A stretch of DNA of 64,000 nucleotides from an uncultured Pelagibacteraceae bacterium (lineage in GTDB: Bacteria > Pseudomonadota > Alphaproteobacteria > Pelagibacterales > Pelagibacteraceae). The notes under the pieces are model-generated. The model had not been told where the DNA came from, ran no database searches, and saw only the letters and a list, made by a program, of their open reading frames with translations. A program made the translations under genes and the position numbers. Location: the NCBI GenBank assembly GCA_902615425.1, contig CACMPD010000005.1, positions 1-64,000 on the forward strand, written 5' to 3'. Shown piece by piece: positions 18,962 through 20,772 of the stretch (its first letter is position 1; each line of letters begins with the position of its first letter).

Positions 18962-19047
18962 GCGGCTATGCTGAAATTGGTAGACAGGCACGGTTGAGGG
19001 CCGTGTGGACCTAGTCCATGAGAGTTCGAGTCTCTCTAGCCGCACCA
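18962..19047 (+). tRNA. tRNA-Leu (anticodon GAG), CCA encoded
   Basis: Acceptor arms GCGGCTA and TAGCCGC pair perfectly. The anticodon stem CACGG/CCGTG encloses the loop TTGAGGG with anticodon GAG. A long class II variable arm (TGGACCTAGTCCA) and a T arm with GTTCGAGTC are present, and the 3' ACCA is genomically encoded. 86 nt. Its last 34 bases are part of a 35-bp direct repeat whose other copy is at 20738-20772, marking it as the attachment site of the following island. Confidence 0.97.
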
Positions 19048-19048
19048 A
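19014..19048 (+). repeat. Left attachment repeat inside tRNA-Leu
   Basis: 35-bp sequence starting GTCCATGAGAGTTCGAGTCT and ending CCGCACCAA, identical to 20738-20772. It covers the end of the variable arm, the T arm, the acceptor 3' strand, CCA and one base beyond. The base on each side differs between copies, so 35 bp is the exact limit. Confidence 0.93.
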
Positions 19049-19102
19049 AATGAAATTTTTATGGGGACTTTTTAATTAAAAATCTCAAACTTTTGAGCTA
19101 AG

Positions 19103-19131
19103 TGTGCTCAGAGTGTGCTCGTATTGTGCTC
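19103..19131 (+). repeat. Left arm-type repeats, 3 x TGTGCTC at 11-bp pitch
   Basis: TGTGCTC begins at 19103, 19114 and 19125, so the three copies have an exact pitch of 11 bp, about one DNA helical turn. The array starts about 55 bp inside the left attachment repeat. The same orientation and pitch recur near the right end. Equal phasing suggests cooperative binding by the N-terminal arm-binding domain of a tyrosine recombinase; that role is inferred. Confidence 0.8.
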
Positions 19132-19228
19132 ATTATTTTTTTCAATTTAAAACAATTTAGACTCAACGTTTAGGATTTGATAATGTTGGATCATGAAAAA
19201 ACTTTTATAGATCGTGGTTCTGGGCTAG

Positions 19229-19792
19229 ATGATAAAATTCAAAAAAAAATTATTATTCATTACAAATAATATTAAAAAATCATTTAAGAATTCTTTTAAT
19301 TATAAAGGAAGATCTCCTAGATCAGAATTTTGGATTTTACAAATATTTTCTATAATTTTTACTTCTGTAGTCATTTTTATCTTTATAGAGATGGAAACAT
19401 ATATGCTGGATAAAACCCAAAATAGTATATTTATGAATTTTGGTACGGAACTAGATAAAGGTCTCACTGGTGATGATTTGATGAAAAAATATGAAAAGCA
19501 ATTAGATATATACTTAAATTTAGTGTTTTATTTTTCTTATGCAATATTTTTATTTCCTTTGCTATCGCTAACAGTTAGACGCCTACATGATTTTGGAAAG
19601 TCAGGATATGTGTTAATTTTATTTTTAATGATTTCAGTCCCATTAGAAATAATAGATTTAAAAAGAGGCTGGATAGCTGATGATACGAATTTAACTTATT
19701 TTTGGTATGCCTTTACTATTGTTTGGCTTTTATATTTGTCTCAGAAATCTGATAAAAGAAAAAATAAATATGGACCAGTGCCAAAATATTAA
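19229..19792 (+). CDS. DUF805 family membrane protein (island cargo)
   Basis: 187 aa with the DUF805 hallmarks: FNYKGRSPRSEFW after a basic N-terminus, VRRLHDFGKSGYVLI after the second hydrophobic segment, and KNKYGPVPKY at the C-terminus. About four membrane helices are visible (residues ~34-55, ~95-115, ~125-140, ~155-172). The loop between the first two is longer than usual for the family and carries the acidic stretch TELDKGLTGDDLMKKYEKQ. DUF805 proteins are common on mobile elements and have no settled function. No other start codon is better supported. Confidence 0.85.
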   Translation: MIKFKKKLLFITNNIKKSFKNSFNYKGRSPRSEFWILQIFSIIFTSVVIFIFIEMETYMLDKTQNSIFMNFGTELDKGLTGDDLMKKYEKQLDIYLNLVFYFSYAIFLFPLLSLTVRRLHDFGKSGYVLILFLMISVPLEIIDLKRGWIADDTNLTYFWYAFTIVWLLYLSQKSDKRKNKYGPVPKY

Positions 19793-19888
19793 AAATAATG
19801 AAAAAACTAAAGCCCATCTAGTTTTATTTGAGGGAATTAAAATTCAGCTAATTAAAAAAGGGATTGCTTTTAAATGACACAAGATAGT

Positions 19889-20148
19889 TCAATGTCTATC
19901 TATATCTTTTTTAATCTCATGCGCCATCTCTTTTTCATCAAGTAAAGAAGAGTTTCTAGATAAAACATCCATAAAAGTAATTGAAGTAGCAATTGTTAAA
20001 TAAAGTATTCCAATTGAGTAAATAATTATGGCATTAGTTGAAAATAAACCTTCTCTAAAGGCTATTATTATAATGAAAATAAATATAACTATACCTAATA
20101 AAATTAAAACAGATTGAAGTTTATTTATTTTTTTTTTCTTGAAGACAT
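19889..20148 (-). pseudogene. Frameshifted small membrane-protein ORF (A10 run)
   Basis: This lies in the 460-base stretch (19793-20252) that the ORF track leaves empty. Reading the minus strand back from the stop at 19889 gives a 97-codon open frame with no ATG, GTG or TTG start before its two hydrophobic segments (LQSVLILLGIVIFIFIIIIAF and NAIIIYSIGILYLTIATSI). Its tail is charged (SLLDEKEMAHEIKKDIDRH). In another frame an ATG at 20148 reads MSSRKKK and then a stop, through a run of ten A. One extra A in the run, or a -1 slip there, would join them into a two-helix protein of about 79 aa. It could be a decayed gene, a sequencing or assembly indel, or programmed slippage. GGAG lies upstream of the ATG. 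Confidence 0.55.
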
Positions 20149-20252
20149 ATGACTTGAATATACTCCAAAAAATAAATAATATCTATTTGTCCGTGATTTA
20201 GAAAAAACTCTACTTGCTTCGGACATAAAACAATAACGCTAAAGGAGGAAAT

Positions 20253-20435
20253 ATGGCTACCGTAAAAGGTATCTACAATCTAATAAAACAAGACCAGCTC
20301 AAAGGTATTAAAATATCTGTAATGGATCAGGCTATTATTGATGCTTGTGAAGCTGAAAACTCAAAAACTACAAAGGAAGTCAATTTAACTTTCATCAAAT
20401 ATAAAAAAGATGGGGGTGAAAATGGCAACAATTAA
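20253..20435 (+). CDS. Island microprotein A (60 aa, paralogue of microprotein B)
   Basis: Not recognised. A strong Shine-Dalgarno AAAGGAGG lies 5 bases before the ATG, which supports real translation. The protein begins MATVKGIYNLIKQDQ, has a helix-like middle ending MDQAIIDACEAE and a beta-like C-terminal TKEVNLTFIKYKKDG. Residue by residue it matches the following ORF (MAT-K--Y-L-K, Q--I-A-E, TKEV---FIKYK), so the two arose by tandem duplication. It is soluble with no membrane helix or cysteine cluster. It may be a small DNA-binding or regulatory protein, but nothing in the sequence proves that. Confidence 0.75.
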   Translation: MATVKGIYNLIKQDQLKGIKISVMDQAIIDACEAENSKTTKEVNLTFIKYKKDGGENGNN

Positions 20436-20595
20436 AAGTGTCTATGAACTTTTAAAAAAAAAGAAAGCTTCAGGTGAAAAGATTGGAATACTTGGACAAT
20501 CTTTAATTGAGGCCTTTGAGGAAGAAAAGGAAATTTCGAACACAAAAGAAGTTCATGTCTCCTTTATTAAATATAAAGACAAAAAGGATAAATAG
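20422..20595 (+). CDS. Island microprotein B (57 aa, paralogue of microprotein A)
   Basis: Not recognised. The ORF track starts at 20410. The ATG at 20422 is preferred because it gives MATIKSVYELLKKKK, aligning exactly with microprotein A, and because GGGGGTG precedes it. It overlaps microprotein A by 14 bases, so translation is probably coupled. Conserved with A are the N-terminal MAT-K--Y-L-K, a middle Q-LIEAFE and the end TKEVHVSFIKYK. Retention of two intact copies suggests a functional protein. Confidence 0.75.
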   Translation: MATIKSVYELLKKKKASGEKIGILGQSLIEAFEEEKEISNTKEVHVSFIKYKDKKDK

Positions 20596-20609
20596 ATCCT
20601 TTATAAATT

Positions 20610-20633
20610 CTCTGGCTTCTAATGGAGCCAGAG
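20610..20633 (+). terminator. Hairpin after the island microproteins
   Basis: Perfect 8-bp stem CTCTGGCT/AGCCAGAG with an 8-base loop, 15 bases after the stop of microprotein B. No T-run follows, so it is either a weak terminator or an mRNA-stabilising hairpin. A competing GATCCT/AGGATC pairing overlaps it. Confidence 0.5.
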
Positions 20634-20666
20634 GATCAGTTTAAAATGATAATAATTTTTTCTGAC

Positions 20667-20684
20667 TGTGCTCAGATTGTGCTC
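20667..20684 (+). repeat. Right arm-type repeats, 2 x TGTGCTC at 11-bp pitch
   Basis: TGTGCTC begins at 20667 and 20678, the same 11-bp pitch and orientation as the left array. The spacer after the first copy (AGAT versus AGAG) is also nearly the same, giving an 18-base near-identity (TGTGCTCAGANTGTGCTC). The pair lies 53 bp inside the right attachment repeat. Confidence 0.8.
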
Positions 20685-20737
20685 GTTGAAAGTTGTATTT
20701 GCAAAATTAGTAAGTTAATTAATATTTAATAGACAAT

Positions 20738-20772
20738 GTCCATGAGAGTTCGAGTCTCTCTAGCCGCACCAA
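20738..20772 (+). repeat. Right attachment repeat (orphan tRNA-Leu 3' fragment)
   Basis: Exact 35-bp copy of 19014-19048. The upstream bases (AATAGACAAT) bear no relation to a tRNA, so this is an attachment-site remnant and not a second tRNA gene. It lies three bases from the stop codon of the core gene ygfZ. Confidence 0.93.

Follow-up and report, generated by a model that had tools for sequence, protein, structure and literature searches.

A membrane microprotein frame split at a run of ten A in a tRNA-Leu insert of a Pelagibacteraceae genome, beside a candidate SAM-II-like leader

The present analysis concerns an open frame on the minus strand of a 64,000-nucleotide stretch (hereafter the window) of the genome of an uncultured Pelagibacteraceae bacterium (G000; 1.06 Mb, 40 contigs). 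This frame is, or was, probably a real gene, which would encode a two-helix membrane protein, and it is broken at a run of ten A (A10, Table 1). We consider it likely that the break is a one-base length change in the hypermutable run of a real, strain-specific gene, rather than a programmed signal; this explanation is favoured because nothing that was found points to a selected offset. Taken alone, the break adds a further case to the one-base homopolymer breaks of AT-rich genomes, and its main use is as a caution for small-gene annotation. The leader and the microprotein operon next to it are more interesting than the split frame: this operon is one of a SAR11-wide set of small proteins with a SAM-II-like leader, which matters more than the frame break, as does the run-length threshold derived below for this genome.

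Table 1. Features discussed in the text (positions in the window)
Feature	Position	Strand	Evidence or remark
tRNA-Leu(GAG), integration target	18962..19047	+	ARAGORN
Left 34-bp direct repeat, tRNA 3′ end, att-like	19014..19047	+
DUF805 membrane protein, other private gene of the insert	19229..19792	+	Pfam PF05656, E 7e-19
79-codon open frame with stop, two-helix membrane protein, charged C-terminal tail	19889..20128	-
Short ATG frame MSSRKKK, TAA right behind A10	20125..20148	-	translation
A10 homopolymer at the frame break	20128..20137	-	T10 on + strand
Conserved SAR11 leader, candidate SAM-II-like pseudoknot aptamer, overlaps Shine-Dalgarno GGAG	20186..20250	+	R1, 74.3 bits
Microprotein 1, 60 aa, MATVKGIYNLIK...	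20253..20435	+
Microprotein 2, 57 aa, MATIKSVYELLK..., tandem paralogue of microprotein 1	20422..20595	+
Right 34-bp direct repeat	20738..20771	+

A preliminary description of this DNA had proposed (i) a hydrophobic frame with a charged C-terminal tail and no start codon, and (ii) an ATG frame, MSSRKKK, that runs through A10 into a stop. Translation of the minus strand confirms both. MSSRKKK starts with the ATG at 20148-20146, the run stands 11 nt from this ATG (four codons past it) and the TAA follows at 20127-20125. One base over, the strand is open for 97 codons, 18 before and 79 past A10. The 79 codons (INKLQ...DIDRH, 20128-19892, stop at 19891-19889; INKLQSVLILLGIVIFIFIIIIAFREGLFSTNAIIIYSIGILYLTIATSITFMDVLSRNSSLLDEKEMAHEIKKDIDRH) contain no stop, and a search of the 97-codon frame for an ATG, GTG or TTG ahead of helix 1, the first hydrophobic stretch, retrieved none. 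With one added A, MSSRKKK would continue into the 79-codon frame, as had been proposed, but the restored protein would have 86 aa (7 + 79) instead of about 79. Since no stop occurs in the 79 codons past the run, the split gene carries a single lesion; the several lesions of a decayed pseudogene were not found in these codons, which are stop-free and show coding-like codon use. Two traits associated with transcriptional slippage are present, namely an A/T run of about nine or more within the coding region and a one-base indel at this run that unites two open frames. The expected location and orientation also hold: the split frame lies in the largest gap of the window (460 bp, 19793-20252) and diverges from the microprotein operon that it was said to face. 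An upstream ATG (20226, in the same frame as MSSRKKK, MSEASRVFSKSR...) was dropped as a start, this stretch being the antisense of the conserved leader.

Codon statistics, shuffled sequences and a structure prediction all agree with a frame that is coding-like, would encode a two-helix membrane protein and is split exactly at A10. The G+C content of the split frame is 12% at codon position 3 and 31% at position 1, and its position-specific composition is close to that of known membrane genes nearby. Its codon score (0.164) falls among those of true short genes, whose mean is 0.21, and exceeds that of 86% of spurious open frames, the gene calls used as controls being simple ORF calls; the other two frames of the same strand have negative scores. 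AlphaFold2, run without an alignment, predicts helices 3-26 and 31-78 with a mean pLDDT of 81. When the 460-bp gap was shuffled 5000 times with its dinucleotides preserved, 97 or more open codons in a row were obtained 27 times (about 0.5%). Frames of 79 codons or more that had two hydrophobic segments numbered four, and none additionally had a charged tail.

These data bear on the explanation that there is no frame break, either because translation begins at a non-standard start (ATA or ATT) in the open frame or because there is no gene at all, which we regard as unlikely. The frame is indeed open for 18 codons ahead of the 79, and chance alone gives a 97-codon frame in this AT-rich gap at the frequency of about 0.5% mentioned above. 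However, the combination of hydrophobic segments and charged tail that is missing from all 5000 shuffles and the gene-like codon score argue against the absence of a gene. As for a non-standard start, no Shine-Dalgarno sequence is placed for it, whereas ATG-SSRKKK would provide, in frame, a natural positively charged N-terminus.

The split frame belongs to an insert of about 1.7 kb (19048-20737), located between two identical 34-bp repeats that are 1724 bp apart. Two observations indicate integration in the tRNA gene: its 3′ end is repeated directly on either side of the insert, and a relative (G481, 98% flank identity, L192) has an empty site, with ygfZ coming right after the tRNA; this empty arrangement is also that of many other members of the genus. 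Two genomes, G482 (L191, 98% flank identity) and G551 (L046), harbor inserts that share with this one its left end or its two microproteins and carry other cargo, and G582 (L049) has other genes at tRNA-Leu(GAG). In G551, the microprotein pair is kept at the same tRNA and the copy of microprotein 2 is 96% identical. No integrase was found between the repeats, where the only gene-sized ORFs are DUF805, the split frame and the two microproteins; the insert is therefore non-autonomous or decayed. A direct repeat, GTGCTCAGANTGTGCTCGT, is present just within both ends of the insert (19103-19122 and 20666-20685), and its copies are possibly recombinase arm sites.

Relatives of the 79-aa frame were sought in 397 genomes of the family and 399 of the genus (about 800 SAR11 genome searches), as well as in GTDB contigs, IMG/VR, phages and plasmids, and none was detected, an absence that applies to these collections at the stated sensitivity. 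Weak matches (E 4e-4 to 0.01) were judged to be due to chance, as they are scattered and often contain stops. At the DNA level, 101 genomes of the genus gave nothing beyond short AT-rich matches, and no family of Pfam, PHROGs, NCBIfam or PADLOC was found above cut-off. Even the genomes in which this tRNA carries an insert lack the split frame, and no carrier of an intact allele, or of the ancestral run length, was found among the genomes searched. For the other private gene, DUF805, no relative was detected at E<=1e-20 in 300 genomes of the genus. The comparison of these genomes thus points to the cargo that includes the split frame as strain-specific.

Homopolymers were counted in 464 kb of G000, corresponding to the window and 20 further stretches (L057-L076). 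This sample contains 63 A/T runs of at least 10, of which 52 are within intact ORFs, several of them directly behind the start codon. The length of A10 is by itself unremarkable in this genome. Nevertheless, when 387 genes were compared with their synonymous-codon shuffles, runs of at least 10 proved depleted in genes (49 observed vs 73.7 +/- 5.5 (s.d.) expected, and five vs 14.7 for A11), those of 7-8 were more numerous than expected and those of 9 were neutral. This depletion indicates that runs of at least 10 are costly and unstable in G000. Following the logic of Baranov et al. (PMC1088944), who give nine as the usual slippage threshold for A/T runs, about 10 is the run length where slippage of RNA or DNA polymerase turns costly in this genome; the threshold obtained from synonymous shuffles makes slippage measurable in streamlined SAR11 genomes. 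Since runs of at least 10 are under-represented in genes, slippage at A10 is physically plausible, but the depletion argues equally for replication slippage, i.e. for plain mutation. Only one plausible gene, the split frame, is broken at a run of at least 8 in the 464 kb. Other run-associated breaks corresponded to antisense frames, tRNA read-through or contig edges, and rpmB was dropped because, on inspection by eye, it has its own start. It follows from this single broken gene that the assembly is not full of homopolymer errors. A lone broken gene in 464 kb is also the pattern expected of an occasional indel, and as one event it fits mutation and artefact alike.

Under the favoured explanation, i.e. 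a one-base change by mutation or error, a recently intact gene for a membrane protein of about 86 aa, folded as a helical hairpin, would have been carried as private cargo by the tRNA-Leu(GAG) insert. A10 would then have lost a single A, or would read one A short, which would put the frame off by one. The missing A could result from a replication-slippage mutation in the cell lineage or from an amplification or assembly error. In this scenario, the ATG of MSSRKKK would be the original start and the change would be of recent date; slippage of RNA polymerase at A10 may still pass a little full-length protein.

Previous studies reported that homopolymer indels are frequent at the 5′ ends of genes (PMC2831843) and that slippage may offset part of the effect of frameshifts in poly(A) tracts (PMC3017870; PMC1088944). 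Slippage at an A10 of Buchnera is cited in PMC6260861, and it reaches 20-25% at A11 of Citrobacter rodentium tssM1 (PMC4256274); a genome-wide survey of Escherichia coli and Buchnera found zero frame-restoring transcription errors (PMC5574713). The split frame resembles the poly(A)-frameshifted genes of Buchnera and Blochmannia (PMC3017870, and Tamas 2008 as cited there) by the AT-rich genome, the one-base offset at an A run, the otherwise clean frame and a possible transcriptional rescue. However, those genes have orthologues showing selection, whereas none was found for the split frame, whose host is a free-living SAR11. In tssM1, likewise, the run lies shortly ahead of a stop and an added A opens a longer frame, but both length variants are functional, as shown experimentally, whereas the split frame is known from sequence only and its short product has 7 aa. 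Finally, as in phase-variable genes with 5′ homopolymeric tracts (PMC2831843), poly(A) is close to the start codon and an indel abolishes the protein; the split frame, known from a single genome, has one known allele.

These precedents raise the question of a utilised offset, where an A added by RNA polymerase, or a reversible A10/A11 phase variation, would set the level of the membrane protein; this seems rather unlikely to us. A10 falls in the documented slippage range, 11-A transcripts are expected in some fraction by the precedents of tssM1 and Buchnera/Blochmannia, the frame past the run is clean, G000 avoids long runs and the run is at the 5′ end, like in phase-variable genes (PMC2831843). 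However, the collections searched gave no homologue that could show a conserved run or frame, the unslipped product is here a 7-aa peptide, unlike the sizeable tssM1 protein, and one broken locus per 464 kb fits chance mutation. It should be emphasized that a slippage-dependent functional gene known from one genome would look identical. To our knowledge, no slippage-controlled gene has been described in SAR11; A10 would thus be the first if it were a used switch (by slippage or reversible A10/A11 change) metering a strain-private membrane microprotein within an insert at a tRNA, the other operon of which stands under a SAM-II-like leader; we hold this to be improbable. The suggestion that slippage is programmed here was not supported: no homologue was found, the sequence downstream of the run does not form a stable structure (z = -0.31) and the sole GGAG is 25 nt before the run. 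Although a slippery heptamer, A AAA AAA, is in the right frame within AGA AAA AAA AAA TAA with the stop close behind, -1 ribosomal frameshifting is very improbable, given that 56 of 200 shuffles fold as well as the downstream sequence with its z of -0.31, that neither this unstable fold nor a GGAG so far upstream constitutes a stimulator, and that an ATG only 11 nt before the run leaves no space for an internal Shine-Dalgarno stimulator.

The leader ahead of the microproteins has a further copy in the same genome (G000:C2:39399-39460; L060 19399-19460). A search with the pattern TGATTTAGAAAN{0,6}ACTCTACTTGC retrieved 88 stretches of GTDB genomes (L077-L164), nearly all labelled Pelagibacteraceae or Pelagibacter, and no match in IMG/VR. 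One of the contigs with a leader is labelled gammaproteobacterium AG-390-N19 (L140 4285-4308), which may reflect transfer or contamination. Behind nearly every copy, a Shine-Dalgarno sequence stands and a small ORF begins, in most cases of about 45-110 aa; a promoter-like -35/-10 pair tends to stand ahead of the leader. The small ORFs belong to several apparently unrelated families, and the six that were tested all lack a Pfam match above cut-off. In the basal stem GUCC/GGAC, the four core pairs are standard in every one of the 75 unique copies; compensatory changes (G-C to A-U and C-G to U-A) give AUCC/GGAU and GUCU/AGAC in some of them, so that P1 shows covariation.

The covariance model R1 detected the leader in 23 of 197 genomes of the family at E<=0.001, two weak matches included. 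All the weaker matches that were followed up lie upstream of methionine-pathway genes. In G000, such a match precedes metX (MetX by NCBIfam; L071 4787-4846, minus strand); in relatives, the downstream genes encode a Cys/Met-metabolism enzyme and BhmT look-alikes, as judged by eye. In Rfam, SAM-II (E 1e-4) and SAM_alpha (E 2e-5) match the metX leader best, with scores that do not reach the gathering thresholds (31.9 vs 44 and 30.2 vs 36), which is why Rfam-based annotation misses this SAM-II riboswitch. A sister copy of the leader can be aligned with SAM_alpha over the full length (E 0.017), at 18.2 bits for a cut-off of 36, and the leader of the window obtains 10.5 bits with RF00521, below the gathering score of 36.

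The leader shares with SAM-II (RF00521/RF01726), in the same order, the P1 stem, a UGAUUUA third strand, CUUGC, a UUUAAA linker and a CGCUAAA core. On our reading of PMC6061858, UGAUUUA, CUUGC, UUUAAA and CGCUAAA would be the triplex-core segments of SAM-II/SAM-V. The SAM contacts named in that study are U47, A50 and U20:A48.U9, and in a hand alignment the corresponding nucleotides fall in invariant columns of the leader. It differs from SAM-II by its loop, AGAAA..AACUCUAC, by its score below Rfam gathering and by the genes that follow, which encode small proteins without known function, whereas SAM-II precedes methionine genes. Its CUCU is predicted from the sequence to form P2a with GGAG, the Shine-Dalgarno sequence; covariation is lacking for these pairs because the columns are invariant and partly fixed by the search pattern. 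Overall, the leader is probably an undescribed or unlisted SAM-II subclass, for which translational control is predicted. It is absent from the motifs named in the 2009 survey of SAR11 RNAs (PMC2704228), and PMC6429828 contains an unnamed candidate of HIMB5 to which it might correspond. Since the small proteins have this SAM-II-like leader in common, our analysis suggests that they are, SAR11-wide, under a predicted control by S-adenosylmethionine. The two microproteins of the insert, which overlap in tandem and have no Pfam family, have single relatives at other sites in three genomes (G109, G202 and G517).
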